Shown here piece after piece: positions 579-62,878 of a DNA stretch of 64,000 nucleotides (position 1 is the stretch's first letter; each line of letters starts with the position of its first letter). The position numbers and the translations under genes are program-made. The notes beneath the pieces were generated by a model that worked only from the letters and a program-made list of their open reading frames with translations, made no database searches and was not told the origin of the DNA. Origin of the DNA: Seriola aureovittata (taxonomy: Eukaryota > Chordata > Actinopteri > Carangiformes > Carangidae); NCBI RefSeq assembly GCF_021018895.1, contig NC_079375.1, positions 14,407,492 through 14,471,491 on the forward strand. Reading direction: 5' to 3'.

Positions 579-12116
<11,538 letters not shown>

Positions 12117-13310
12117 GCCTGCTCCTGTGAGCAGCCACCCCTCCACCCACCCCACCTCCTCGGCCAGCTACTACAGCACAATATGCAACAGATCTTTCAA
12201 CCCAATCAATCCACGACCCCTGCACCTGTCCAACCTGATTTTAGCTCTACTCTGAAGCGCAGCACCTGCATGTGCAAAAGGGGCCTCGGTCTATTTTCCC
12301 TCTCCTCACCTCGTGCGGACCAGGAAACCAGTCAGAAAGATGTTGAATAAATCTCAGATGTGGACAGTCATATCTCTCTGCAATTGGAATAAGTGGACTA
12401 GTACTCCCTCTGGTGGACAAATAGAGGATCAACATAATTTACATTCAGAAGTGTCTCCATTCCAAACCAGGTACATTAACAGAGCGCTTTGCAGCACAAA
12501 TTATCCCCCCGTGAAGATCAGTTCATTATGTTGAGATTTAACTTTTGGGCTGCCACTCTCTGATAACCTTTGCCAACTGACTTACTGATTATTGTATTCA
12601 TGAGTATGATTACTGCTACTTGTTTCTCAGAAATTTCTCTGTTCAGTGTCTTACAATAGTACTGTGTCTATGAGTGGATGTCTGGCTGCATCAGTCCTTA
12701 GTTGCTTTACAAAACAAGGGCACAATGTTTAACTTTGTGTTGTACTCCAGAAAAAAAGGTGTCTATACAAAAATGGTATTTTCCCTCGTCATATATCTGG
12801 ATTGACCTCTTCTTTTAGTCACTGTGCCTTACTGTGGGTGAAATGTTCATGTTAGGAGCCCACATGATGCTGAAAATGAGTAAATATGGGTAGGCCTTGT
12901 CTGAACTGTGCATTCCGTTGATAACTCGAACACAGATCATGATTTCATTTTCCTGAAAGGATAAAGTTTAAAAAAAAAAGGAGGTATGGCACATTGATCT
13001 CGGAACAGGGAAAGAACTGAATACAAAATAAGGTGGCATTATACTGATGAAAATGTAAAGAATATATAGTTTGCAAATACAGTTCTTGATATTTACCTTC
13101 CATACTGGTGAGTTAACTATGCTGATTTTTTTTCATTATTTTGTGAATTTCTTTGACTTGTGTTCTAAATGGCTTGACTCTCTCCCCATGTCACTTCTGT
13201 TAGTATTGTCAGTGGTTTCTAGTCAGCTGATGTACAAAGTGTATAAATCTTATATTGTTTAAGTCTTCATGTTGTATGTGCAACTTGTATATAAAGCATT
13301 TTGAAATGTA
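12117..13310 (+). other. dpp6: dpp6 3' untranslated region
   Basis: This is non-coding sequence after the stop. An AATAAA hexamer at 12346-12351 could give a short 3'UTR. A weaker TATAAA at about 13290 could give a longer one ending near 13,310, just before the inverted-repeat block. The 3' end is inferred; no transcript evidence is available. Confidence 0.55.
12346..12351 (+). terminator. Candidate poly(A) signal of dpp6 (proximal)
   Basis: A canonical AATAAA lies 230 bp after the dpp6 stop codon. Use is unproven. Confidence 0.4.
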
Positions 13311-13348: not shown

Positions 13349-14187
13349 GTATACTATGGAGGTAGATTTGTTTCAATATTATGAATGAACAGCGTGAACA
13401 GATCAACAATCCGGGTGTAATTGTATAATCTATAAATATAAAACACCTTCCACAAATACAAAAAGTACATTTGCAAATTCACAAAAATATTTTAAAAATA
13501 TAAAACGGATTTTTTGAATTCCACAAATAAAAAAAATATCTCAATACATCCAATTTATTTACAAATAAATGAAAAACATTTGTGAATCAATTTTCTATTT
13601 GTCAAGCGAAAAGGCGTTTGTCGATCTGAATTCTACGCTTCGTTTGTGGCTTTCACGTACCGAGTTTTGAAACTTTCTGACTGACTGAGCAAAATCGATC
13701 TGAGTAACTAGGCCACTATCTTAAAACACGTGATCACCTGCTGATGATACCATTTCCGCTTTTAAAAAATAAGAGCACTTAGTCTTCTATGTGTAGTTTT
13801 ATTTTCCATAAATGATCGGCGACAAGTAACGTGCACTACGTTAACGGTTGTAAGATATGAAGTAACAGGACTCGGTTAAGGTCTTTGATAGTATGGGTGT
13901 TGGTGTTGATATTTGTTTTGTTAAGAAATGACGTATTACAATTTTATTGTTCATCTATAATATGTGGTCTACCGTTAACTACTAAACCGGCACCTGTTCC
14001 TATGGCGACAGTAAACATGCATGTTGCGGACTGAGGGAATGGAAGCAGTGTACTGGATTATTTTACACTGTGATGATGATGACGATATAATGTAAATAGA
14101 CCACATTTCATACCCACCCAACCTGTAAAGAGATAACTGGTGTCATTTGTTTACCATTGAGTTTATTGTAATCATTCAGTCCATTTC
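13349..14187 (+). repeat. Left terminal inverted repeat
   Basis: It pairs with 33264-34047 in reverse complement. Shared blocks from tip to inside are gtatactatggaggtagatt, aaaacaccttccacaaatac, cgacaagtaacgtgca, acgttaacggttgtaagata and cctgtaaagagataactggt. The subterminal 200 bp is AT-rich with several cacaaata-type words. The arms differ by substitutions and indels, and the left arm has about 55 bp more. Confidence 0.88.
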
Positions 14188-14340
14188 CTAGGCCTATTTA
14201 CAGCATAATAGGTATTTTCTACATGTAGGCTATAATCAGTTGGCAATTATCGTCAAAGTCCTGTGCAGTCAGTGGACCTGCCAACTCATCTCTTACAAGT
14301 GGTAATAGCAAGGCCGGCACAAGGCTTAAGCGAAATAAGC
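14188..14340. other. Unique segment inside the left inverted repeat
   Basis: About 150 bp with no match to the right arm or the array. It contains caaggccggcacaaggctta and then a short aagcgaaataagcg repeat where the array begins. No coding frame is recognised. Confidence 0.5.
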
Positions 14341-17300
14341 GACCATACTATATTATAACTTTTATGACCTTACCATACTATGATGCTTTTATGCCTTACA
14401 ATACTATAATGTTATCATGCCTTACTATAGATAGACTTTGTGATGAGACGAGACAGTCGTTCAGTGATTAGAACTGTTGCTTTACACTGAGAATTCTTAG
14501 GATTCGAACCCCGGGCCTAGAGCGTTTCTGTGTGAAGTTTGCATGTTGACCCTATACCTGCATGGGTTCCATCCGGGTAATCCGACTTACTCACTTACTA
14601 CATTTTTATGACTTATTATACTACGTCGGTTTTTTGACGCATTTATGCTTTATTATACTATGACGTTTTGAGAATTTTTTATGCCTTACTACACTATGAC
14701 ATTTTTAATGGTCAACTATACTATGACGTTTTATGCCTTACTTTACAGTTACTTTTTTATGACGTTTTTAAGCCTTATTACACTATTACGTTTTTATCAC
14801 TTTTAATCCCTTAATATACTAACTCGTTTTATCACTTTTTATGCCGATGAAGTTTTTATGACTTTTTATGTCTTACTATACTATGAGGTTTTTATGACTA
14901 TTTATGCATTACTATAGTATGACGTTTTTATGACATCTTATGCCTTACTATACTATGACATTTTTATGACTTTTTATGCCTTACTGTAGTATGACTTTTT
15001 ATGCCTGATTATACGATGTCTTTTTTATGACTTTTTATGACTTACTATACTATGACGTTTTTATGCCTTACTATACTATGATGCTTTTATGCCTTAATAT
15101 ACTATGACGTATTTATGACTTTGTATACCTAACTATAGTATGACGTTTTTATGACATCTCATGCCTTACTATCCTATGTCGTTTTTATGACTTTTTATGC
15201 CTTGCTATACTATAACGTTTTTATGACTTTCCATGCTTTACTATACTATGATGTATTTAAACCTTACTATACTATAACTTTTTATCACTATAAATGCCTT
15301 ATTATACTACGTCGTCCTAATGAAGTTCTTATGCCTTACAATACTATGACTTTTTATCACTTTAAATGCCTTACTATACTATGACGTTTTTATGACTATT
15401 TATGCCTAACTGTACTGTGACTTTTTATGCCTTTTTATGCCTTACTATACTATGACTTTTTATGACTTTTTATGCCTTACTATACTATGACTTTTCATGC
15501 CTTACTATACTATAACATTTTTATGCCTTACTATACTATGTTGTTTTTATGAATTTTTTTGCCTTACTGTACTATGAATTTTTATGCCTGATTATACTAT
15601 GTTGTTATTATGACTTTTTATGCCTTACTATACTATGACATTTTTATGCCTTACTATATTATGACTTTTTATACCTAATTATACTATGTTGTTATTATGA
15701 CTTTTTATGCCTTACTATACTATGACTTTTTATGACTTTTTATGCCTTACTATACAATGATGTTTTTATGCCTTACTATACTATGATGTATTTATGACTT
15801 TTTATGCCTTACTGTACTATGATGTTTTTATGACTATTTATGCCTTACTATAATATGACGTTTTTATTACATCTCATGCCTTACTATACTATGACGTTTT
15901 TATGCCTGATTATACTATGACTTTTTATGACTTTTATGCCTTACTATACGATGATGTTTTTATGTCTTTTTATGCCTAACTATACTATGGCGTTTTTATG
16001 ATTTTCATGCTTTACTATACTATGATGTTTCAAGCCTTACTTTAGTATGACGTTTTTATGACATTTTATGCCTTACTATACTATGACGTTTTTATGCCTG
16101 ATTATGCTATAACGTTTTTATGACTTTTCATGCCTTACTATGCTATGACGTTTTTATGACTCTTTATGCCTTACTATACTGTGACTTTTATGCCTTACTA
16201 TACTATGACCTTTTTATGACTATTTATGCCTTACTATAATATGACGTTTTTATGACTTTTTATACCTTACTATACGATGACTTTTTTATGTCTTTTTATT
16301 CCTAACTATACTATGGCGTTTTTATGATTTTTATGCTTTACTATACTATGATGTTTCAAGCCTTACTTTACTATGACGTTTTTATGACATTTTATGCCTT
16401 ACTATACTATGACGTTTTTATGCCTGATTATGCTATGACGTTTTTATGACTTTTCATGCCTTACTATACTATGACGTTTTTATGACTCTTTATGCCTTAC
16501 TATACTGTGACTTTTATGCCTTACTATACTATGATGTTTTTATGACTATTTATGTCTTACTATAATATGACGTTTTTATTACATCTCATGCCTTACTATA
16601 CTATGACATTTTTATGCCTGATTATACTATGACTTTTTATGATTTTTATGCCTTACTATACGATGATGTTTTTATGTCTTTTTATGCCTAACTATACTAT
16701 GGCGTTTTTATGATTTTCATGCTTTACTATACTATGATGTTTCAAGCCTTACTTTACTATGACATTTTTATGACTTTTTATGACATTTTATGCCTTACTA
16801 TACTATGACGTTTTTATGCCTGATTATGCTATGACATTTTTATGACTTTTCATGCCTTACTATACTATGACGTTTTTATGACTCTTTATGCCTTACTATA
16901 CTGTGACGTTTATGCCTTACTATACTATGACCTTTTTATGACTATTTATTCCTTACTATAATATGACGTTTTTATGACTTTTTATACCTTACTATACGAT
17001 GACTTTTTTATGTCTTTTTATTCCTAACTATACTATGGCGTTTTTATGATTTTCATGCTTTACTATACTATGATGTTTCAAGCCTTACTTTACTATGACG
17101 TTTTTATGACATTTTATGCCTTACTATACTATGACGTTTTTATGCCTGATTATGCTATGACGTTTTTATGACTTTTCATGCCTTACTATACTATGACGTT
17201 TTTATGACTCTTTATGCCTTACTATACTATGACTTTTTATGCCTTACTATACTATGACGTTTTTATGACTATTTATTCCTTACTATAATATGACGTTTTT

Positions 17301-20300
17301 ATTACATCTCATGCCTTACTATACTATGACGATTTTATGCCTGATTATACTATGACGTTTTTATGATTTTTATGCCTTACTATACGATGATGTTTTTATG
17401 TCTTTTTATGCCTAACTATACTATGGCGTTTTTATGATTTTCATGCTTTACTATACTATGAAGTTTTTATGACTTTTTATGCCTTACTATACTATGACTT
17501 TTTATGCCTTACTATACTATGACTTTTTATGCCTTACTATACTATGACTTTTTTATGACTTTTCATGCCTTACTATACTATGTCGTTTTTATGACTTTTT
17601 ATGCCTTACTATACTATGACGTTTATATGACTATTTATGCCTTACTATATTATGACTTTTTATGCTTACTATACTATGACTTTTCATGCCTTACTATAAC
17701 TATGTCGTTTTTATGACTTTTTATGCCTTACTATACTATGATGTTTTTTTGACTATTTATGCTTTACTTTACTGTGACTTTTTATGCCTTACTATACTAT
17801 GACTTTTTATGCCTTACTATACTATGACTTTTTCTGCCTTAATATACTGTCGTTTTTATGACTTTTTATGCCTTACTATACTATGACTTTTTATGCCTTA
17901 CTATACCATGACCTTTTATGACTTTTTATGCCTTACTATACTATGACGTTTTTTTGACTTTTTATGCCTTACTATACTGTGACTTTTTATGCCTTACTAT
18001 ACTATGACTTTTTATGACTTTTCATGCCTTACTATACTATGTCGTTTTTATGACTTTTTATGCCTTACTATACTATGACTTTTTTATGACTTTTTATGCC
18101 TTACTATACTATGACGTTTTTATGACTTTTTATGCCTTACTATACTATGACGTTTTTATGACTTTTTCTGCCTTAATGTACTATGTCGTTTTTATGACTT
18201 TTTATGCCTTACTATACTATGACGTTTTTATGACTCTTTATGCCTTACTATACTATGACTTTTTATGCCTTACTATACTATGACGTTTTTATGACTTTTT
18301 ATGCCTTACTATACTATGACTTTTTATGACTTTTTATGCCTTACTATACTATGACGTTTTTATGACTTTTTATGCCTTACTATACTATGATGTTTTTTTG
18401 ACTATTTATGCCTTACTATACTATGACTTTTTATGACTTTATATGCCTTACTGTACTATGACTTTTTATGACTTTTTATGACTTTTATGCCTTACTTACT
18501 ATGACTTTTTATGCTTACTATACTATGATTTTTATGCCTTACTATACTATGACGTTTTTATGACTTTTTATGCCTTACTATACAATGATGTTTTTATGCC
18601 TTACTATACTATGACTTTTTATGACTTTTATTGCCTTACTATACTATGATGTTTTTATGACTTTTTATGCCTTACTATACTATGACGTTTTTATGACTTT
18701 TCATGCCTTACTATACTATGACGTTTTTATGACTTTTTATGCCTTACTATACTATGACGTTTTTATGACTTTTATGCCTTACTATACTATGACGTTTTTA
18801 TGACTTTTTATGCCTTACTATACTATGACGTTTTTATGACTTTTTATGCCTTACTATACTGTGACTTTTATGCCTTACTATACTATGACGTTTTTATGAC
18901 TTTTTATGCCTTACTGTACTATGACTTTTTATACCTAATTATACTATGTTGTTTTTATGACTTTTTATGCCTTACTATACTATGACTTTTTATACCTTAC
19001 TATACTATGACTTTTTATGCCTTACTATACTATGACTTTTTATGACTTTTATGCCTTACTATACTATGATGTTTTTATGACTTTTTATGCCTTACTATAA
19101 TATGACGTTTTTATGACATTTTATGCCTTACTATACTATGACTTTTTATGCCTGATTATACTATAACTTTTTATGACTTTTATGCCTTAATATACTATGA
19201 TGTTTTTATGACTTTTTATGCCTTACTATACTATGACTTTTTAATGCCTTACTATACCATGACTTTTTATGCCTTACTTTACTATGACTTTTTACGCCTT
19301 ACTATACTATGACGTTTTTATGCCTTACTATACTATGTCGTTTTTATGACTTTTTATGCCTTACTATACTATGACTTTTTATACCTTACTATACTATGAC
19401 TTTTTATGCCTTACTATACCATGACTTTTTATGACTTTTCATGCCTTACTATACTACGTCGTTTTTATGACTTTTTATGCCTTACTATACTATGACGTTT
19501 TTATGACTATTTATGCCTTACTATACTGTGACTTTTTATGACTTTTTATGCCTTACTATACCATGACTTTTTATGACTTTTCATGCCTTAATATACTATG
19601 TCGTTTTTTATGACTTTTTATGCCTTACTATACTATGACTTTTTATGCCTTACTTTACTATGACTTTTTATGACATTTTACGCCTTACTATACTATGACT
19701 TTTCATGCCTTACTATACTATGTCGTTTTTATGAATTTTTATGCCTTACTATACTATGACTTTTTATACCTTACTATACTGTGACTTTTCATGCCTTACT
19801 ATACTATGACTTTTTTATGACTTTTTATGCCTTACTATACTATGACTTTTTTATGACTTTTTATGCCTTACTATACTATGACGTTTTTATGACATTTTAT
19901 GCCTTACTATACTATGACATTTTATGCCTTACTATACGATGATGTTTTTATGTCTTTTTATGCCTAACTATACTATGGCGTTTTTATGATTTTCATGCTT
20001 TACTATACTATGATGTTTCAAGCCTTACTTTACTATGACTTTTTTATGACATTTTACGCCTTACTATACTATGACGTTTTTATGCCTAACTATACTATGT
20101 CGTTTTTATGACTTTTTATGCCTTACTATACTATGACTTTTTATACCTTACTATACTATGACTTTTTATGCCTTACTATACCATGACTTTTTATGACTTT
20201 TCATGCCTTACTATACTATGTCGTTTTTATGACTTTTTATGCCTTACTATACTATGACGTTTATATGACTATTTATGCCTTACTAAACTATGACTTTTCA

Positions 20301-23300
20301 TGCCTTACTATACTATGTCATTTTTATGACTTTTTATGCCTTACTATACTATGATGTTTTTTTGACTATTTATGCTTTACTTTACTGTGACTTTTTATGC
20401 CTTACTATACTATGACTTTTTATGCCTTACTATACCATGACTTTTTATGCCTTACTATACTATGACTTTTTATGCCTTACTATACTATGACTTTTTCTGC
20501 CTTACTATACTATGTCGTTTTTATGACTTTTTATGCCTTACTATACTATGACGTTTTTATGACTATTTATGCCTTACTATACTATGACTTTTTCTGCCTT
20601 AATATACTATGTCGTTTTTATGACTTTTTATGCCATACTATACTATGACGTTTTTATGACTATGTATGCCTTACTATACTATGACTTTTTCTGTCTTAAT
20701 ATACTATGTTGTTTTTATGACTTTTTATGCCTTACTATACTATGACGTTTTTATGACTATTTATGCCTTATATTATGACTTTTTTCTGCCTTACTATACT
20801 ATGTCGTTTTTATGACTTTTTATGCCTTACTATACTATGACTTTTAATGCCATACTAAACTATGTCGTTTTTATGACTTTTTATGCCTTAGTATACTATG
20901 TCGTTTTTATGACTTTTTATGCCTTACTATACTATGACGTTTTTATGACTTTTTATGCCTTACTATACTATGATGTTTTTTTGACTGTTTATGCTTTACT
21001 TTATTGTGACTTTTTATGCCTTACTATACTATGACTTTTTATGCCTTCCTATACTATGACCTTTTATGCCTTACTATACTATGTCGTTTTTATGACTTTT
21101 TATGCCTTAATATACTATGACGTTTTTATGACTATTTATGCCTTACTATACTATGACTTTTTCTGCCTTACTATACCATGACTTTTTATGACTTTTCATG
21201 CCTTACTATACTATGATGTTTTTTGACTATTTATGCTTTACTTTACTGTGACTTTTTATGCCTTACTATACTATGACTTTTTATGCCTTACTATACTATG
21301 TCGTTTTTATGACTTTTTATGCCTTACTATACCATGAATTTTTATGCCTTACTATACTATGACATTTTCTGCCTTAATATACTATGTCGTTTTTATGACT
21401 TTTTGTGCCTTGGTATACCGTGACTTTTTATGCCTTACTATACCATGACGTTTTTATGACTATTTATGCCTTACTATACTATGACTTTTTCTGCCTTAAT
21501 ATACTATGTCGTTTTTATGACTTTTTATGCCTTACTATACTATGACGTTTTTATGACTATTTATGCCTTACTATACTATGACATTTTCTGCCTTAATTTA
21601 CTCTATCGTTTTTATGACTATTTATGCCTTACTAAACTATGACTTTTTATGCCTTACTATACCATGACTTTTTATGACTTTTCATGCCTTACTATACTCT
21701 GTCGTTTTTATGACTTTTTATGCCTTACTATGATGTTTTTTTGACTATTTATGCTTTACTTTACTGTGACTTTTTATGCCTTACTATACTATGACTTTTT
21801 ATGCCTTACTATACCATGAATTTTTATGCCTTATTATACTATGACTTTTTATGACTTTTCATGCCTTACTATACTATGACTTTTTCTGCCTTAATATACT
21901 ATGTCGTTTTTATGAATTTTTATGCCATACTATACTATGACGTTTTTATGACTATTTATGCCTTACTATACTATGACTTTTTCTGCCTTAATATACTATG
22001 TCGTTTTTATGACTTTTTATGCCTTACTATACTATGACGTTTTTATGACTATTTATGCCTTACTATACTATGACTTTTTCTGCCTTAATATACTATGTCG
22101 TTTTTATGACTTTTTATGCCTTACTATACTATGACTTTTTATGCCTTACTATACTATGTCGTTTTTATGACTTTTTATGCCTTACTATACTATGACGTTT
22201 TTATGACTATTTATGCTTTACTTTACTGTGACTTTTTATGCCTTACTATACTATGACTTTTTATGCCTTACTATACCATGAATTTTTATGCCTTATTATA
22301 CTATGACTTTTTATGACTTTTCATGCCTTACTATACTATGTCGTTTTTATGACTTTTTATGCCTTACTTTACCATGACTTTTAATGCCTTACTATACTAT
22401 GTCGTTTTTATGACTTTTTATGCCTTACTATACTATGACGTTTTTATGACTATTTATGCCTTACTATACTATGACTTTTTCTGCCTTAATATACTATGTC
22501 ATTTTTATGACTTTTTATGCCATACTATACTATGACGTTTTTATGGCTATTTATACCTTACTATACTATGACATTTTCTGCCTTAATATACTATGTCGTT
22601 TTTATGACTTTTTATGCCTTACTATATTATGACGTTTTTATGACTATTTATGCCTTACTATACTATGACTTTTTCTGTCTTACTATACTATGTCGTTTTT
22701 ATGACTTTTTATGCCTTACTATACTATGACTTTTTATGACTTTTCATGCCTTACTATAATATGACGTTTTTATGACTATTTATGCCCTACTATACTATGA
22801 CTATTCCTGCCTTAATATACTATGTCGTTTTTATGACTTTTTATGCCTTACTATACGATGAATTTCTATGCCTTACTATACCATGACTTTTTATGACTTT
22901 TCATGCCTTACTATACTATGTCGTTTTTATGACATTTTCTGCCTTAATACATTATGTCCTTTTTATGACTTTTTATGCCTTACTATACTATGTTGTTTTT
23001 ATGACTTTTTATACCTTACTATACTATGACTTTTTATGCCTTACTATACTATGACTTTTTCTGCCTTAATATACTATGTCGTTTTTATGACTTTTTATGC
23101 CTTAACATACTATGACGTTTTTATGACTATTTATGCCTTACTATACTATGACATTTTCTGCCTTACTATACTATGTCATTTTTATGACTTTTTATGCCTT
23201 AGTATACCATGAATTTTTATTCGTTTTTATGACTTTTTATGCCTTACTATACTATGTCGTTTTTATGACTTTTTATGCCTTACTATACTATGACTTTTTA

Positions 23301-26300
23301 TACCTTACTATACTATGACTTTTCATGCCTTACTATACTATGACTTTTTCTGCCTTAATATACTATGTCGTTTTTATGACTTTTTATGCCTTACTATACT
23401 ATGACGTTTTTATGACTATTTATGCCTTACTATACTATGACTTTTTATACCTTACTATACTATGACTTTTTATGCCTTACTATACTATGACTTTTTCTGC
23501 CTTAAAATACTATGTCGTTTTTATGACTTTTTATGCCTTACTATACTATGACGTTTTTATGACTATTTATGTCTTACTATACTATGACATTTTCTGCCTT
23601 ACTATACTATGTCGTTTTTATGACTTTTTATGCCTTACTATACCATGACTTTTTATGCCGTACTATACTATGACTTTTTATGCCTTACTATACTATGTTG
23701 TTTTTATGACTTTTTATGCCTTAGTATACCATGACTTTTTATGCCTTACTATACTATGACTTTTTTTTTACTTTTTATGCCTTACTATACTAGGACGTTT
23801 TTATGACTATTTATGCCTTACTATACTATGACTTTTTCTGCCTTACTATACCATGACTTTTTATGACTTTTCATGCCTTACTATACTATGATGTTTTTTT
23901 GACTATTTATGCTTAACTTTACTGTGACTTTTTATGCCTTACTATAATATGACTTTTTATGCCTTACTATACTATGACTTTTTATGACCTTTCATGCCTT
24001 ACTATACTATGTCGTTTTTATGAGTTTTTATGCCTTATTATACTATGCCGTTTTTATGACTATTTATGCCTTACTAAACTATGAATTTTTATGCCTTACT
24101 ATACTATGACTTTTTATGCCTTACTATACTATGTCGTTTTTATGACTTTTTATGCCTTAGTATACCGTGACTTTTTATGCCTTACTATACTATGTCGTTT
24201 TTATGACTTTTTCTGCCTTAAAATACTATGTCGTTTTTATGACTTTTTATGCCTTACTATACTATGACGTTTTTATGACTATTTATGCCTTACTATACTG
24301 TGACTTTTTCTGCCTTAATATACTATGTCATTTTTATGACTTTTTATGCCTTACTGTAATATGACTTTTCATGCCTTACTATACTATGTCGTTTTTATGA
24401 CTTTTTATGCCTTACTATACCATGACTTTTTATGCCTTACTATACTATGTCGTTTTTATGACTATTTATGCCTTACTATACTATGACTTTTTCTGCCTTA
24501 ATATACTATGTCGTTTTTATGACTTTTTATGCCATACTATACTATGACGTTTTTATGACTATGTATGCCTTACTATACTATGACTTTTTCTGTCTCAATA
24601 TACTATGTCGTTTTTATGACTTTTTATGCCTTACTATACTATGACGTTTTTATGACTATTTATGCCTTACTATATTATGACTTTTTTCTGCCTTACTATA
24701 CTATGTCGTTTTTATGACTTTTTATGCATTACTATACTATGACTTTTTATACCTTACTATACTATGACTTTTTATGCCATACTAAACTATGTCGTTTTTA
24801 TGACTTTTTATGCCTTAGTATACCGTGACTTTTTATGCCTTACTATACTATGTCGTTTTTATGACTTTTTATGCCTTACTATACTATGAAGTTTTTATGA
24901 CTATTTATGCCTTACTTTAGTGTGACTTTTTATGCCTTACTATACTATGACTTTTTATGACTTTTCATGCCTTACTATACTATGACGTTTTTATGACTTT
25001 TTATGACTTTTTATGCCTTACTATACGATGAATTTTTATGCCTTACTATACCATGACTTTTTATGCCTTACTATACTATGACGTTTTTATGACTATTTAT
25101 GCCTTACTATACTATGACATTTTCTGCCTTAATATACTATGTCGTTTTTATGACTTTTTATGCCTTACTATACTATGACTTTTTATGCCTTAATATACTA
25201 TGTCGTTTTTATGACTTTTTATGCCTTACTATACTATGACGTTTTTATGACTATTTATGCTTTACTATACTATGACATTTTCTGCCTTAATATACTATGT
25301 CGTTTTTATGACTTTTTATGCCTTACTATACTATGACGTTTTTTTGACTATTTATGCTTTACTTAACTGTGACTTTTTATGCCTTACTATACTATGTCGT
25401 TTTTATGACTATTTATGCCTTACTATACTATGACTTTTTCTGCCTTAATATACTATGTCGTTTTTATGAATTTTTATTCCTTACTATACTATGACTTTTT
25501 ATACCTTACTATACTATGACTTTTTATGCCTTACTATACTATGTCGTTTTTATGACTTTTTATGCCTTAGTATACCGTGACTTTTTATGCCTTACTATAC
25601 TATGACGTTTTTATGACTATTTATGCCTTACTATACTATGACTTTTTATACCTGACTATACTATGACTTTTTCTGCCTTAATATACTATGTCGTTTTTAT
25701 GACTTTTCATGCCTTATTATACTATGACGTTTTTATGACTATTTATGTCTTACTATACTATGACATTTTCTGCCTTACTATACTATGTCGTTTTTATGAC
25801 TTTTTATGCCTTAGTATACCATGACTTTTTATGCCTTACTATACTATGACTTTTTTTTTACTTTTTATGCCTTACTATACTATGACGTTTTTATGACTAT
25901 GTATGCCTTACTATACTATGACTTTATCTGTCTCAATATACTATGTCATTTTTATGACTTTTTATGCCTTACTATACTATGACGTTTTTTTGACTATTTA
26001 TGCTTTACTTAACTGTGACTTTTTATTCCTTACTATACTATGTCGTTTTTATAATTTACTATACTATGACTTTTTATGCCTTACTATACTATGTCGTTTT
26101 TATGACTTATTATGCCTTAGTATACCGTGACTTTTTATGCCTTATTATACTATGATGTTTTTATGACTATTTATGCCTTACTATACTATGACTTTTTCTG
26201 CCTTAATATACTATGTCGTTTTTATGAATTTTTATGCCTTATTATACTATGTCGTTTTTATAATTTACTATACTATGACTTTTTATGCCTTACTATACTA

Positions 26301-29300
26301 TGTCGTTTTTATGACTTATTATGCCTTAGTATACCGTGACTTTTTATGCCTTATTATACTATGATGTTTTTATGACTATTTATGCCTTACTATACTATGA
26401 CTTTTTCTGCCTTAATATACTATGTCGTTTTTATGAATTTTTATGCCTTATTATACTATGTCGTTTTTATGAATTTTTATGCCTTACTATACTAGGACGT
26501 TTTTATGACTATTTATGCCTTACTATACTATGACTTTTTCTGCCTTACTATACCATGACTTTTTATGCCTTACTATACTATGACTTTTCATGCCTTACTA
26601 TACTATGATGTTTTTTTGACTATTTATGCTTAACTATACTATGACTTTTTATGCCTTACTATACTATGACTTTTTCTGCCTTAATATACTATGTCGTTTT
26701 TATGACTTTTCATGCCTTATTATACTATGACGTTTTTATGACTATTTATGTCTTACTATACTATGACATTTTCTGCCTTACTATACTATGTCGTTTTTAT
26801 GACTTTTTATGCCTTAATATACCATGACTTTTTATGCCTTACTATACTATGTCGTTTTTATGACTTTTTATGCCTTACTATACCATGAATTTTTATGCCT
26901 TATTATACTATGACTTTTTATGACTTTTCATGCCTTACTATACTATGTCGTTTTTATGACTTTTTATGCCTTACTATACTATGACGTTTTTATGACTATT
27001 TATGCCTTACTATACTATGACATTTTCTGCCTTAATATACTATGTCGTTTTTATGACTTTTTATGCTTTACTATACTATGACTTTTTATGCCATACTAAA
27101 CTATGTCGTTTTTATGACTTTTTATGCCTTAGTATACCGTGACTTTTTATGCCTTACTATACTATGACGTTTTTATGACTATTTATGCCTTACTATACTA
27201 TGACTTTTTCTGCCTTAATATACTATGTCGCTTTTATGACTTTTTATGCCTTACTGTACTATGACTTTTTATGACTTTTTATGCCTTACTATACTATGTC
27301 GTTTGTATGACTTTTTATGCCTTACTATACTATGACGTTTTTATGACTATTTATGCCTTACTATACTATGATGTTTTTTTGACTATTTATGCCTTACTTT
27401 ACTGTGACTTTTTATGCCTTACTATACTATGACTTTTTATGACTTTTCATGCCCTACTATACTATGACGTTTTTTTGACTATTTGTGCCTTACTTTACTG
27501 TGACTTTTTATGCCTTACTATACTATGACTTTTTATGACTTTTCATGCCTTACTATACTATGTCGTTTTTATGAGTTTTTATGCCTTACTATACTATGCC
27601 GTTTTTATGACTATTTATGCCTTACTATACTATGACTTTTTCTGCCTTAATATACTATGTCGTTTTTATGAATTTTTATGCCTTACTATACTATGACTTT
27701 TTATACCTTACTATACTATGACTTTTTATGCCTTACTATACTATGTCGTTTTTATGACTTTTTATGCCATAGTATACCGTGACTTTTTATGCCTTACTAT
27801 ACTATGACGTTTTTATGACTATTTATGCCTTACTATACTATGACTTTTTATACCTTACTATACTATGACTTTTTATGCCTTACTATACTATGACTTTTTC
27901 TGTCTTAATATACTATGTCGTTTTTATGATTATTTATGCCTTACTATACTATGACTTTTTATGCCTTACTATACTATGACTTTTTATGCCTTACTATACT
28001 ATGACGTTTTTATGACTATTTATGCCTTACTATACCATGACTTTTTCTGCCTTAATATACTGTCGTTTTTATGACTTTTTATGCCTTACTATACTATGAC
28101 GTTTTTATGACTATTTATGCCTTAGTATACCATGACTTTTTATGCCTTACTATACTATGACTTTTTTTTGACTTTTTATGCCTTACTAAACTATGACTTT
28201 TTATGCCTTACTATACTATGTCGTTTTTATGAATATTTATGCCTTACTATACTATGACTTTTTATACCTTACTATACTATGACTTTTCATGCCTTACTAT
28301 ACTATGACGTTTTTATGACTATTTATGTCTTACTATACTATGACATTTTCTGCCTTACTATACTATGTCGTTTTTATGACTTTTTATGCCTTAGTATACC
28401 ATGACTTTTTATGCCTTACTATACTATGACTTTTTTTTGACTTTTTATGCCTTACTAAACTATGACTTTTTATGCCTTACTATACCATGACATTTTCTGC
28501 CTTACTATACTATGTCGTTTTTATGACTTTTTATGCCTTACTATACTATGACTTTTCCTGTTTTAATATTCTATGTCGTTTTTATGATTTTTTATGCCTT
28601 AGTATACCATGACTTTTTATGCCTTACTATACTATGACTTTTTTTTTACTTTTTATGCCTTACTATACTATGACGTTTTTATGACTATTTATGCCTTACT
28701 ATACTATGACTTTTTCTGCCTTACTATACCATGACTCTTTATGACTTTTTATGCCTTACTATACTATGACGTTTTTTTGACTTTTTATGCCTTACTAAAC
28801 TATGACTTTTTATGCCTTACTATACCATGACATTTTCTGCCTTACTATACTATGTCGTTTTTATGATTTTTTATGCCTTAGTATACCATGACTTTTTATG
28901 CCTTACTATACTATGACTTTTTTTTTACTTTTTATGCCTTACTATACTATGACGTTTTTATGACTATTTATGCCTTAATATACTATGACTTTTTCTGCCT
29001 TACTATACCATGACTCTTTATGACTTTTTATGCCTTACTATACTATGACGTTTTTTTGACTATTTATGCCTTACTTTACTGTGACTTTTTATGCCTTACT
29101 ATACTATGACTTTTTATGACTTTTCATGCCTTACTATACTATGTCGTTTTTATGAGTTTTTATGCCTTACTATACTATGTCGTTTTTATGACTTTTTATG
29201 CCTTAGTATACCGTGACTTTTTATGCCTTACTATACTATGACGTTTTTATGACTATTTATGCCTTACTATACTATGACTTTTTCTGCCTTAATATACTAT

Positions 29301-32300
29301 GTCATTTATATGACTTTTTATGCCTTACTGTAATATGACTTTTCATGCCTTACTATACTATGTCGTTTTTATGACTTTTTATGCCTTACTATACCATGAC
29401 TTTTTATGCCTTATTATACTATGTCGTTTTTATGACTTTTTATGCCTTACTATACTATGTCGTTTTTATGACCATTTATGCCTTACTATACTATGACTTT
29501 TTCTGCCTTAATATACTATGTCGCTTTTATGACTTTTCATGCCTTACTATACTATGTCGTTTTTATGACTTTTTATGCCTTACTATACTATGAAGTTTTT
29601 ATGAGTATTTATGCCTTACTTTACTGTGACTTTTTATGCCTTACTATACTATGACTTTTTATGACTTTTCATGCCTTACTATACTATGTCGTTTTTATGA
29701 CTTTTTATGCCTTACTATACTATGACGTATTTATGACTATTTATGCCTTAGTATACCATGACTTTTTATGCCTTATTATACTATGTCGTTTTTATGACTT
29801 TTTATGCCTTACTATACTATGTCGTTTTTATGACCATTTATGCCTTACTATACTATGACTTTTTCTGCCTTAATATACTATGTCGCTTTTATGACTTTTC
29901 ATGCCTTACTATACTATGTCGTTTTTATGACTTTTTATGCCTTACTATACTATGAAGTTTTTATGAGTATTTATGCCTTACTTTACTGTGACTTTTTATG
30001 CCTTACTATACTATGACTTTTTATGACTTTTCATGCCTTACTATACTATGTCGTTTTTATGACTTTTTATGCCTTACTATACTGTGATGTTTTTTTGACT
30101 GTTTATGCTTTACTTTATTGTGACTTTTTATGCCTTACTATACTATGACTTTTTATGCCTTACTATACTATGTCGTTTTTATGACTTTTTATGCCTTACT
30201 ATACCATGAATTTTTATGCCTTATTATACTATGACTTTTTATGACTATTTATGCCTTACTATAATATGACTTTTTCTGCCTTAATATACTATGTCGTTTT
30301 TATGAATTTTTATGCCTTACTATACTATGACTTTTTATACCTTACTATACTATGACTTTTTCTGCCTTAATATACTATGTCGTTTTTATGACTTTTCATG
30401 CCTTATTATACTATGACGTTTTTATGACTATTTATGTCTTACTATACTATGACATTTTCTGCCTTACTATACTATGTCGTTTTTATGACTTTTTATGCCT
30501 TAGTATACCATGACTTTTTATGCCTTACTATACTATGTCGTTTTTATGACTTTTTATGCCTTACTATACCATGAATTTTTATGCCTTATTATACTATGAC
30601 TTTTTATGACTTTTCATGCCTTACTATACTATGTCGTTTTTATGACTTTTTATGCCTTACTATACTATGACTTTTTATGCCATACTAAACTATGTCGTTT
30701 TTATGACTTTTTATGCCTTACTATACTATGACTTTTTATGCCTTACTATACTATGACGTTTTTATGACTATTTATGCCTTACTATACTATGACTTTTTCT
30801 GCCTTAATATACTATGTCGTTTGTATGACTTTTTATGCCTTACTATACTATGACGTTTTTATGACTATTTATGCCTTACTATACTATGACGTTTTTTTGA
30901 CTATTTATGCCTTACTTTACTGTGACTTTTTATGCCCTACTATACTATGACTTTTTATGACTTTTCATGCCCTACTATACTATGACGTTTTTTTGACTAT
31001 TTGTGCCTTACTTTACTGTGACTTTTTATGCCCTACTATACTATGACTTTTTATGACTTTTCATGCCCTACTATACTATGACGTTTTTTTGACTATTTAT
31101 GCCTTACTTTACTGTGACTTTTTATGCCTTACTATACTATGACTTTTTATGCTTTACTTTATTATGACTTTTCATGCCTTACTATACTATGTCGTTTTTA
31201 TGCCTTACTATACTATGCCGTTTTTATGACTATTTATGCCTTACTAAACTATGAATTTTTATGCCTTACTATACTATGACTTTTTATGCCTTACTATACT
31301 ATGTCGTTTTTATGACTTTTTATGCCTTAGTATACCGTGACTTTTTATGCCTTACTATACTATGACGTTTTTATGACTATTTATGCCTTACTATACTATG
31401 ACTTTTTCTGCCTTAATATACTATGTCATTTATATGACTTTTTATGCCTTACTGTAATATGACTTTTCATGCCTTACTATACTATGTCGTTTTTATGACT
31501 TTTTATGCCTTACTATACCATGACTTTTTATGCCTTATTATACTATGTCGTTTTTATTACTTTTTATGCCTTACTATACTATGTCGTTTTTATGACTATT
31601 TATGCCTTACTATACTATGACTTTTTATGCCTTACTGTACTATGACTTTTTATGCCTTACTATACTATGTCGTTTGTATGACTTTTTATGCCTTACTATA
31701 CTATGACGTTTTTATGACTATTTATGCCTTACTATACTATGACGTTTTTTTGACTATTTATGCCTTACTTTACTGTGACTTTTTATGCCTTACTATACTA
31801 TGACTTTTTATGACTTTTCATGCCCTACTATACTATGTCGTTTTTATGACTTTTTATGCTTTACTATACGATGAATTTTTATGCCTTACTATACCATGAC
31901 TTTTTATGACTTTTCATGCCTTACTATACTATGTCGTTTTTATGAGTTTTTATGCCTTACTATACTATGCCGTTTTTATGACTATTTATGCCTTACTAAA
32001 CTATGACTTTTTATGCCTTACTATACCATGACTTTTTTTGACTTTTCATGCCTTACTATACTATGTCGTTTTTATGACTTTTTATGCCTTACTAAACCAT
32101 GATGTTTTTTTGACTATTTATGCTTTACTTTACCGTGACTTTTTATGCCTAACTATACTATGACTTTTTATGCCTTAGTATACCGTGACTTTTTATGCCT
32201 TACTATACTATGACATTTTTATGACTATTTATGCCTTACTTTACTATGACTTTTTCTGCCTTTATGTACTATGTCGTTTTTATGACTTTTTATGCCTTAC

Positions 32301-32807
32301 TATACTATGACTTTTTATGCCTTACTATACCATGACTTTTTATGACTTTTCATGCCTTACTATACTATGACGTTTTTTGACTTTCCATGCCTTACTATAC
32401 TATGACGTTATTATGCCTTACTATACTATGACATTTTTATGACTATTTATGCCTTACTATACTATGAGTTTTTATGCCTTACTTTACTATGAGTTTTTAT
32501 GCCTTACTATACTATGTCATTTTAATGACTTTTCATGCCTCAGTATATTATGATGTTTCTATGACTTTCCATGCTTTACTATACTATGATGTTTTTATGC
32601 CTTACTTTACTATGACATTTTTATGATCTTTCATGCTTTACTATACTATGTCGTTTTTATGACTTTTTATGTCTTACTATAATATGTATATTTATTTTTT
32701 TAAGCGAAACTTTACTTTCACTTTTATATGCTTTATTATAGAATGTCTCTTTTAATGCCTAATGCTAGTTTGACTTTTCATGCCTTACTATGCTATGACT
32801 TTTATAC
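14341..32807 (+). repeat. AT-rich satellite array, about 18.4 kb, 25/26- and 35/36-bp monomers
   Basis: The core monomer is ATGCCTTACTATACTATGAC followed by a T5 run (25-26 bp with an optional CG). The longer form adds ATGACTTTTT or ATGACTATTT, giving 35-36 bp. All copies lie in the same orientation, probably 500-700 in number. Variant monomers (ttctgccttaatatac, ttagtataccgtgac, tgctttactttactgtgac) recur in fixed order as higher-order units. A 97-bp trimer is clear near 21,491/21,588 and 21,983/22,080. Longer duplications of 209 bp (26,051/26,260), 362 bp (29,469/29,831) and about 330-385 bp (16,024/16,352/16,736/17,072) are also seen. Edge copies (14,341-15,500 and 32,390-32,807) are the most divergent. 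Many copies carry a CpG in TGACG or TGTCG. Confidence 0.97.
14452..14590 (+). mobile_element. Degraded tRNA-like SINE fragment within the satellite edge
   Basis: The segment interrupts the array and reads like a dispersed fish repeat: cagtgattagaactgttgct, a B-box-like ggattcgaacccc at 14500-14512, then tttctgtgtgaagtttgcat and tgcatgggttccatccgggt. It has no intact tRNA cloverleaf, so it is not called a tRNA gene. Confidence 0.55.
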
Positions 32808-32918
32808 TCCGTTAACTCGCTCGACAATATTCAAATACAATAAACAAACAGCAACCCACAGTCCATTTCACTTACATTTACATGTCACTATGCTCTTTTT
32901 GCGTCAAAACTTAAATGA

Positions 32919-33269
32919 AAATGCAATCTGTCAGTCTTTTCATCAAGGCAGGTCATTAGTTCAGATGCCACTTTACATTTGTTGCCTTTCCTGGGCAGAG
33001 GCAGCTGCTTGTTTTACCAGGGCAAAAATGAAACAAAGATCCACTGTGATATGCAATATTCACTGTTATTGGAAATTTTGTGGCTACGAGGACAAGTTCA
33101 ACAGAAATCTTTCACAGCAGTTGAACAGCTTCCCCCCACTCTTTGTGATGTCACTCACTCTAGTTGTGAACATTTGCACATACACACTAATGTTAAAATC
33201 CTGAAATTTCCAGAAATGAATGGGATTTCTATAGAGGTAGAGTTATCTCAATTTTTGTCTCACAAATAG
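32919..33269 (+). pseudogene. Possible coding fossil against the right inverted repeat
   Basis: A frame of 116 codons is open from 32919 to a TAG at 33267-33269, a few bases inside the right inverted repeat. The translation is mixed in composition (for example KIHCDMQYSLLLEILWLRG and LKFPEMNGISIEVELSQFLS) and unlike the repetitive frames of the array. It could be the C-terminal remnant of a protein of the parent element, or of a captured gene. No family is recognised. A second frame is also open across much of it, so coding origin is only a suggestion. Confidence 0.3.
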
Positions 33270-34047
33270 ATTGAATGATTACAATAAATTCAATCGTAAA
33301 GAAATGACACCAGTTATCTCTTTACAGGTTGGATGAGTAAATAAATGCGATCTATTTACAATGTATCTTCATCATCATGACAATTAAAAAAATTCCAGCA
33401 CCTGGCTTTCATTCCCAGTCTGCAACATGAATATTTACTGTACATATTAACAATTAACAATAAAATTGCAATATGTAATTTCTTAAAGCAAATACGAACA
33501 CCAATAGCCATATTAACAAAGATGGTGACCAGGTCCTGTCACTTCATATCTTACAACCGTTAACGTATTGCACGTTACTTGTCGCTGATTATTTAAGGGA
33601 AAAAACAACACATAGAAGACTACGTGCTCTTACTTTGAAAAGCGGAAATGGCGTCACCAGCAGGTGACCCAAGTCGATTTTGGTTCAGACTGGCGGAAAG
33701 TTTGTTTCAAAACTTCATGTGCGTAAAATTGAAATCCACAAGCATACAATTGAGATCCACAAATTCAAACTCTCTGTTTGAAAGTTGTAAATGTTAGGAA
33801 GATATTCACAAATGGTTTTCATTTAATGCTAAATGAATTGAATGTATTTACGGATCATTTTTTATTTGTGGAATTTGTTTGTGTATTTGGAAAATTCGTT
33901 TTATATTTGCAAGGTATTTTTGTGATTTAGCAAATTAGTTTTTTGTATTTGTGGAAGGTGTTTTATATCCAGAGTTTACACATTTACACATGGATTGTCG
34001 ATCTGCTCACACAAACAATACTGAACAAATCTACCTCCATAGTATAC
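33264..34047 (-). repeat. Right terminal inverted repeat
   Basis: It is the reverse complement partner of 13349-14187. Homology runs from gtatac at 34042-34047 inwards to about 33264, where it stops abruptly. Confidence 0.88.
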
Positions 34048-35597
34048 CAACAAAGTACAGTATGTAACTGGTATCTAGTGCTTCAACATTTTTGAGGAAG
34101 TGACAACATACATGAGAATTTGCCATTGACAAAATTTATTTCCAGTGTTTCAGGAGTCTGTGCACACCCCTCTCACAATTAGAGGAACACAGCATTGGTA
34201 CAAATGGTCCAGCTCAATGAAGTGTTTCCTCCTGCAGGGACCTCTCTCCACAGAGAAGTACCCGGCTGCCCACACCCACATAGGCCTCACGAGCAACCTC
34301 ATCTCACAATACTGTACTTAATCCTGCAATCTGATGGAAATGTAAAGCAGCTAAAACATGGCATTTGTATGTACATTTAACTTACTTATTTTACAAGGAA
34401 TATTTAAAATTCAAGTTCTGTTAAAATCAAAAAAATGAAAAACAGGAGGAGAAAAAAAAAAGTATAAAACATGTTAAGACCAGAGTGGAATGCCTAAGGA
34501 ATGGAAGCTCGGCATTTTGTTACATTACCTGTAGAATGACTGAGAGTCGACAATAAAAATGTCATTCACAGTAACATCTTCGTGTATATAAACAAAGACA
34601 ATATGGCACCCTTAACATTTCATTGTGAGGCACTTCCTATTGTGAAGAAACATGATTTTTTTCTGATGTGATTACCCATTTTCTTTTTCTTTCTCTTTGC
34701 CTAACAGATGTGTGAACCACAAACACTAAAACACAGCATAACACTTGCATCAGAGGGATGTTGTTCACTGCTCTTTAAACCACATAGCTGGGATGAATAA
34801 TAACTCTTGGTTTCCATTTGCATAACTCCAGTGTCTCCTTGTCACCCTTGTACCTTTGGAAAGGCCCCTTTGACGGCAGAGCGCTTGTAAGCAGTCCACA
34901 CACAGGCTGTACCAAAAACACAATTCAAGTACACAGAAAAATAGGGATATGTACACTTTAGAATGAAACACAAGCATCTAAAGCTTTTAGTCAGTATTAC
35001 AGCAAGCATGTCTGTACATTCTTCATTTGGTTACTGAGAGACTCACTGACTTTGAACATCATAACTTTCTTTACACAAAAATAATTCCTCTGCAATACTA
35101 AAAATCTTTTTTACTACTTCCTATTCATCCTAGAAGTCAGTTCATCCTTAAAGCCACTTAGCTAAACCTTTATAACAATCTTAACTGTGTTCACACCTTC
35201 TTGCACATACTTCACAGACTCATTGTTTCATGAGCAACAGGTCCTCTCAATCTTCAGCATAACAGGGATTTGTAGGAGGGAGGAAGTCCTCCTGCTGACC
35301 CATCCCAAAGTCATTTGTCATTAAAAAAAAAAGAAAAAAGAATGAAATTAAAAATGGTATAAACAATATTTTGTTCCATGCCTTATATGTGAGCAAGATC
35401 AACGATCCCTGTGTGCAGTAATCTTCTTTTCACAAGCACACACACCACTTACAGACACACACTCCAGACATTTTTTTTTGTGCAACATGCTCATTCACTA
35501 ACATTGGTCACACAACAGACATTACACTGACAGACTCCCACGTAAGTACACATCTCACAGATGAATAACACACACAGTCACACACGTCCAATACTTC
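34048..35597 (-). other. arhgap21: arhgap21 3' untranslated region and short intergenic gap
   Basis: From the stop codon (35598-35600) the minus strand continues as AT-rich non-coding DNA to a canonical AATAAA at 34140-34135, giving a 3'UTR of about 1.5 kb. Only some 65-90 bp then separate it from the inverted-repeat element. No other gene is seen. Confidence 0.6.
34135..34140 (-). terminator. Candidate poly(A) signal of arhgap21
   Basis: AATAAA on the minus strand (TTTATT on plus), about 1,460 bp past the stop codon and about 90 bp from the element edge. Use is unproven. Confidence 0.5.

Positions 35598-62878
<27,281 letters not shown>

Follow-up and report, generated by a model that had tools for sequence, protein, structure and literature searches.

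An 18.4-kb satellite array between the inverted arms of a probable DNA transposon in Seriola aureovittata

Between the convergent dpp6-like and arhgap21b genes of Seriola aureovittata, two inverted arms enclose a long satellite array, and we asked whether this structure is one mobile element with a satellite as its interior or the product of separate events. The window, by which we mean the whole 64,000-nucleotide stretch analysed (C12:14407492-14471491), was compared with its source assembly of 647,093,275 bases in 31 contigs. We consider that the structure, which covers 20,687 bp (13355-34041) and is flanked on both sides by GTATAC, is probably a non-autonomous DNA transposon: its inverted arms measure about 0.8 kb, its tips are of the TA..TA form, its target site duplications (TSDs) are 6 bp long, and an 18.4-kb satellite array makes up its interior.

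The joined translation of the minus-strand exons downstream matches the Rho GTPase-activating protein 21b of Seriola dumerili, to which a second arhgap21b exon is identical in 520 of 528 residues; the stop of the dpp6-like gene was placed near 12115 by eye. Two poly(A)-like words, also read by eye, lie on either side of the element (TATAAA at 13290-13295, and AATAAA on the minus strand at 34135-34140). Were they used, about 150 bp would separate them in the absence of the insertion; their use can only be inferred, because an earlier AATAAA is present near 12348. Elsewhere in the window, a (TG)59.5 run at 5220-5338 adjoins a dpp6-like exon, and 47 consecutive A occupy 58793-58839.

Table 1. Coordinates of the element, its parts and the neighbouring genes in the window.
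Feature	Position	Strand	Remark
dpp6-like gene, exons in window	5196..12117	+	upstream neighbour; Pfam and PDB comparisons
Left TSD copy, GTATAC	13349..13354	.	palindromic
Left arm, tip TATGGAGGTAGATTTG at outer end	13355..14187	+	homologous left-type arms elsewhere, most beginning at 13355
Left spacer	14188..14339	+	also in other left-type copies; query used, 14241-14340
Satellite array of 10/11-bp and 15-bp modules, units of 36 and 25 bp, 61-bp higher-order unit	14340..32810	+	
SINE-like insert with B-box-like word, degenerate left array edge	14436..14600	+	read in sequence
Right spacer	32811..33223	+	matches beside right-type arms at other loci
Fossil inner junction of right arm: GATTTC, then inverted tip copy TATAGAGGTAGA	33224..33256	+	
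Right arm	33230..34041	-	
Right TSD copy, GTATAC	34042..34047	.	
arhgap21b 3'-terminal coding exon	35598..37274	-	downstream neighbour; 526/529 residues identical to Seriola dumerili P0001

A blastn comparison aligned the arms (13349-14186 against 34047-33264 on the minus strand) with 70.5% identity over 872 columns (E 6.6e-128 or 2.5e-126 in two runs); identity is 79.6% over 785 ungapped columns, with a K2P distance of 0.24. No further copies of either arm were found within the window, where other matches had E values of 0.05 or weaker. The outer word GTATACTATGGAGG is the same at both ends, the identical stretch being 22 bp long. The homology between the arms ends near 14187/33264, and the right arm goes 35 bp further, to an inner end that is an inverted copy of its own tip (33229-33255, 22 of 27 positions matching the left tip). 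This is the best match to the tip in the 64 kb after the tip itself; its score was equalled by none of 5000 random stretches of the window, and 22 matches were reached by none of 300 shuffled tips. At the inner end of the left arm no such inverted tip was found (p 0.37), and an extension of the homology was not significant there (p 0.17). A preliminary description of this DNA had recognized the inverted arms, their common outer word and the array between them, all of which stand, while it described the inner ends only in part; with a fossil tip at the inner end of the right one, the arms are more than long terminal inverted repeats (TIRs) devoid of features. The longest stop-to-stop ORF within an arm has 62 aa, and a protein search with an arm ORF gave no match.

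The array is tiled by the modules TATGACTTTT, TATGACGTTTT and TATGCCTTACTATAC with 1320 edits in 18,471 bases, modules of the first two kinds preceding the third, on one strand throughout its 18.4 kb and with periods of 36, 61 and 25 bp. The long module was placed 587 times in the tiling, in a few cases by force on the SINE-like insert at the left edge; in the commonest units both short modules (258/587) or one (217/587) precede the long one. Edges are more degenerate than the centre: from 15 to 32 kb the edits per base amount to 3-9%, compared with 11% in the last part and 26% at the left edge, a figure to which the insert adds. Exact repeats of at least 50 bp are spaced by 362, 3686, 2124 and other distances, which suggests recent turnover. 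As for the insert, which we take to be SINE-like, Rfam gave no match at gathering score (one sub-threshold match, to snR67) and a tRNA scan made no call at 14436-14600.

A protein search with an array ORF returned a single match, P0121, a 125-aa product of a 604-bp contig, which starts with translated satellite and whose remainder is presumably sequencing adapter. Exact-pattern searches of viral and genome contig collections gave nothing useful, and a bacterial promoter scan, a method unsuited to fish DNA, was uninformative. The idea that the satellite unit derives from the arms was rejected, no significant similarity being found over the arms (p 0.59 or weaker). The word TATACTATG, common to the tip and the unit, is rare among 20-mers (0.33% of 29,872, one strand); we discounted it because it was noticed post hoc and because its first letters are the target site, which varies between loci.

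We then looked at how the parts of the element are distributed in the genome. The 17-base tip TATGGAGGTAGATTTGT was found at 139 places with at most one mismatch (64 forward, 75 reverse), against 12 for a reversed control, and the matches listed (100 of the 139 places) are spread over contigs C1-C22. A simple calculation gives about 0.2 as the number of forward-then-reverse pairs of tips expected within 25 kb by chance. Searches with one arm gave at least 63 matches for the left arm (40 of 285 candidates scored) and at least 49 for the right (40 of 292). Arms recur as inverted pairs rather than always singly, and the left spacer adjoins left-type arms while the right spacer adjoins right-type arms, with the array following in several cases of each type. 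Other loci repeat the order of arm, spacer and array. Three or more copies of one 9-base array word on one strand were present in 26 of 64 loci, some of which overlap. In other left-type copies no array was met within the roughly 1.5 kb read past the arm, and several of these have a common, different interior. Left-type copies with that interior and no array within reach were noted at least at L006, L007, L011, L013, L017, L018, L019, L025 and L027.

From the fetched loci and the tip list we assembled 15 copies with two inverted tips. Twelve bear the array, so that at least 12 two-tip copies of the family carry the same satellite; they measure 1,480, 2,535 (with a short, degenerate array), 4,585, 6,463, 6,840, 11,391, 12,687, 13,121, 15,973, 19,909, 20,554 and 20,687 bp. 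The three without an array measure 649, 731 and 8,070 bp. The 8.07-kb copy (L031, 846-8915) has both ends present, and its interior holds stop-to-stop ORFs that by eye resemble a nested LINE reverse transcriptase. For the copies of 12,687, 13,121, 15,973, 19,909 and 20,554 bp we read both ends and, from the interior of each, two samples of 400 bases, and all ten samples were array on one strand, with a tiling cost of 0.11-0.23 against 0.56-0.67 in six control stretches. The window copy is the largest of the 15, followed by those of 20.6 and 19.9 kb. An internal array of this length had been expected to be exceptional; in this genome it is not, given the other array-bearing copies of 11.4, 12.7, 13.1, 16.0, 19.9 and 20.6 kb. 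Inverted termini in dispersed copies are what a cut-and-paste TIR DNA transposon would leave.

Comparison of the flanks pointed the same way. Five of the 15 copies have flanks identical in six of six positions: the window copy (GTATAC), the 6,840-bp copy on C21 (CACACC), the 6,463-bp copy on C20 (GATGGA), the 19,909-bp copy on C9 (CTGAAT) and the array-less 649-bp copy on C18 (L024, GACAGG). Four of these bear the array, three of the four with non-palindromic flanks. The 20,554-bp copy matches in five positions; those of 11,391, 8,070, 731, 1,480, 2,535 and 15,973 bp match in four, the 1,480-bp value being that of the tip-fitting one of three end positions tried (1, 4 and 2 matches of 6). The 4,585-bp copy has three matches, and the 12,687- and 13,121-bp copies two each. 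Shifted controls, available for 9 of the 15 copies, average 1.3-2.1 matches. Since GTATAC is a palindrome, the window's own duplication proves little alone, and the 6-bp length rests on the other four loci. A TSD of constant length, as in cut-and-paste TIR transposons, is seen, in full in 5/15 and with three matches or fewer in 3/15; old duplications are expected to have decayed in part, given that the arms have diverged by about 20%. We left out of the 15 the inverted pairs made by the right arm only (L004 2/6, L005 3/6, the window 3/6, L021 3/6 and L029 4/6), because their inner end is a fixed internal junction. Three further inverted pairs (C3:20075497-20076486, C13:5989923-5990762 and C9:897096-897394) also lie outside the set. 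Taken together, the ordered recurrence of inverted arm pairs, spacers and array and the full direct flanks of five copies support the earlier view of a single foldback or TIR element.

The fossil tip could be read quite differently, as a sign that one small element inserted twice, by chance in opposite orientations, and that the array arose between the resulting arms. An inverted copy of the arm's own tip does form the inner end of the right arm, and the element also occurs in small solo copies, such as the 649-bp copy with its perfect flanks. However, the window, L004, L005, L021 and L029 all have an identical junction, ATGAATGGGATTTCT, while their outer flanks differ by locus; a fresh insertion would be expected to lie in a flank of its own. 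The junction is present at L003 in a diverged form that lacks a clear tip, and at L030 it was not found. In addition, arm, spacer and array recur together and the outer flanks match at other loci. The common junction and these flank matches largely remove two independent insertions, which we hold to be very improbable. As the junction is common to five loci, the inner tip is better seen as a frozen relic inside the family, whose ancestor may have formed when one small copy came to rest inverted beside, or within, another.

The relation among the arms agrees with a single transposon. In a tree of 19 arms, both window arms fall in one clade with the L002 left arm and the right arms of L004, L005 and L039 (support 0.998), and an array is in reach at all arms of this clade except the L004 right arm, where the right spacer is present and no array was met in the 1.5 kb read. 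In the 19-arm alignment the two window arms differ by a K2P distance of 0.209, against between-locus values of 0.191 (left-left), 0.219 (right-right) and 0.225 (left-right). Since they are no more divergent than arms of different loci, they can be read as genuine terminal repeats, similar to each other at the time of the group's spread. Assemblies are known to be at risk of error where arrays are enclosed by long inverted repeats, and one could think of an assembly artefact or of a chance inverted duplication; considering that the arms differ by about 20% and that the layout recurs on other contigs, this is scarcely credible.

Regarding the kind of transposon, the termini TATGGAGG..CCTCCATA with 6-bp flanks match those of IS3EU/GingerRoot DNA transposons, for which TA..TA termini and usually 6-bp TSDs are described (PMC10045372). 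Tips and flank length suggest that the window family belongs to this superfamily. Unlike in those elements, no transposase with these tips was found here, Pfam having been run on seven window ORFs, one of them within the element; internal satellites are not mentioned in the part of that source dealing with IS3EU/GingerRoot. Tc1/mariner, with its TA duplication, was rejected, as the 6-bp duplications of the C21, C20, C9 and C18 copies contain no TA (GATGGA and CTGAAT hold AT). The 649-bp solo copy with its matching flanks fits a MITE, while the 20.7-kb element is far beyond MITE size.

Satellites inside transposons are already known, and the window element is a long-array variant of them. The nearest case found is Tetris of Drosophila virilis, a non-autonomous foldback element that, like the window element, has long inverted ends and internal tandem repeats (TIR-220) (PMC4079207). 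The sections of that report on Tetris place the repeats inside each TIR and give a TSD of 8-10 bp, whereas here one array of a single orientation lies between the arms, with none within the inverted ends, and the TSD is 6 bp. Arrays derived from Tetris reach up to 66 copies, or about 14 kb at 218 bp each by our multiplication, and its authors suggest that large arrays disrupt the element (PMC4079207); in contrast, the 20-kb copies described here keep both ends. In Xenopus, miDNA4 and the MITE-related tandem repeats Xstir likewise have an array inside, or derived from, a transposon, and MITE-internal arrays are thought to seed satellite arrays (PMC12628747, PMC9659126), although miDNA4 belongs to another superfamily (Tc1/mariner). 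The literature searches made found no description of this fish satellite; the one by repeat letters gave a single, unrelated paper.

We asked how the arrays reached their present length. Five of six arrays reuse 0.54-0.82 of their own 24-mers, while sharing between loci is at most 0.43, a comparison to be taken with caution as reuse rises with array size; the short and decayed array of L032 reuses just 0.05. Module mixtures also vary between loci. The two longest arrays measured are the most uniform (0.064 and 0.069 edits per base), the other twelve array stretches having 0.13-0.36. Word reuse within loci and locus-specific mixtures were taken as growth and homogenisation in place, and array growth was probably mostly of this kind. 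Alternatively, the array of the same transposon family could already have been long at transposition, elements of 10-20 kb moving whole and planting long arrays. Big copies do retain direct flanks (6/6 at 20,687 and 19,909 bp, 5/6 at 20,554 bp), and the window array and the C3 array have 0.41-0.43 of their 24-mers in common, more than the window array has with any of the other four compared. Yet each large array has its own module mixture and reuses mainly its own words, and a duplication is proof of movement but says nothing of array length at that time, so that we find this alternative unlikely. On the preferred reading of growth in place, a transposase acting in trans, in all likelihood one of the IS3EU/GingerRoot type, would have moved an element with a shorter array. 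The insertion between the 3' ends of dpp6 and arhgap21b would be old, and the greater part of the present array would have arisen there by unequal exchange or slippage.

Arrays of this satellite are not restricted to two-tip copies. A 361-base array query gave 3311 candidate places genome-wide, 39 of which were scored with at least 204 matches, and the arrays measured reach 18.4, 17.1 and about 10 kb; these are long head-to-tail arrays recurring in the genome, as in satellite DNA. Many large ones lie near no tip among the matches listed, where one-mismatch tips extend to C12 only and older tips would be missed; examples are C16:25361829-25368273, C7:9998764-10010981 and C15:375156-381304. The 17.1-kb array on C3 (L034/L065, C3:21991535-22008640) is joined at one end to the right arm and spacer, and the 1.36 kb past its other end contain no left arm. 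At L061 and L067 the array faces the opposite way relative to the adjoining arm, compared with the window. The orientation at these two loci, the C3 array without its left arm and the many large arrays near no listed tip count against the preferred explanation, as do the three copies with flanks of 3/6, 2/6 and 2/6, the failure to find a transposase and the low reuse in L032. A further, tentative reading, somewhat doubtful to us, is that the satellite travelled as cargo: TIR elements that measure up to 20.7 kb and consist almost wholly of satellite would have moved whole and planted long arrays, some of which later lost their ends and became free arrays.

How satellites spread and come to lie between genes is an old question, and here a satellite DNA seems to owe part of its spread to a single kind of mobile element. 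A single genome holds a graded series, from array-less copies of 0.65 kb to the satellite-filled copy of 20.7 kb, several of them with TSDs, so that the passage from transposon to satellite can be followed step by step across loci, with related carangids as a means of dating.
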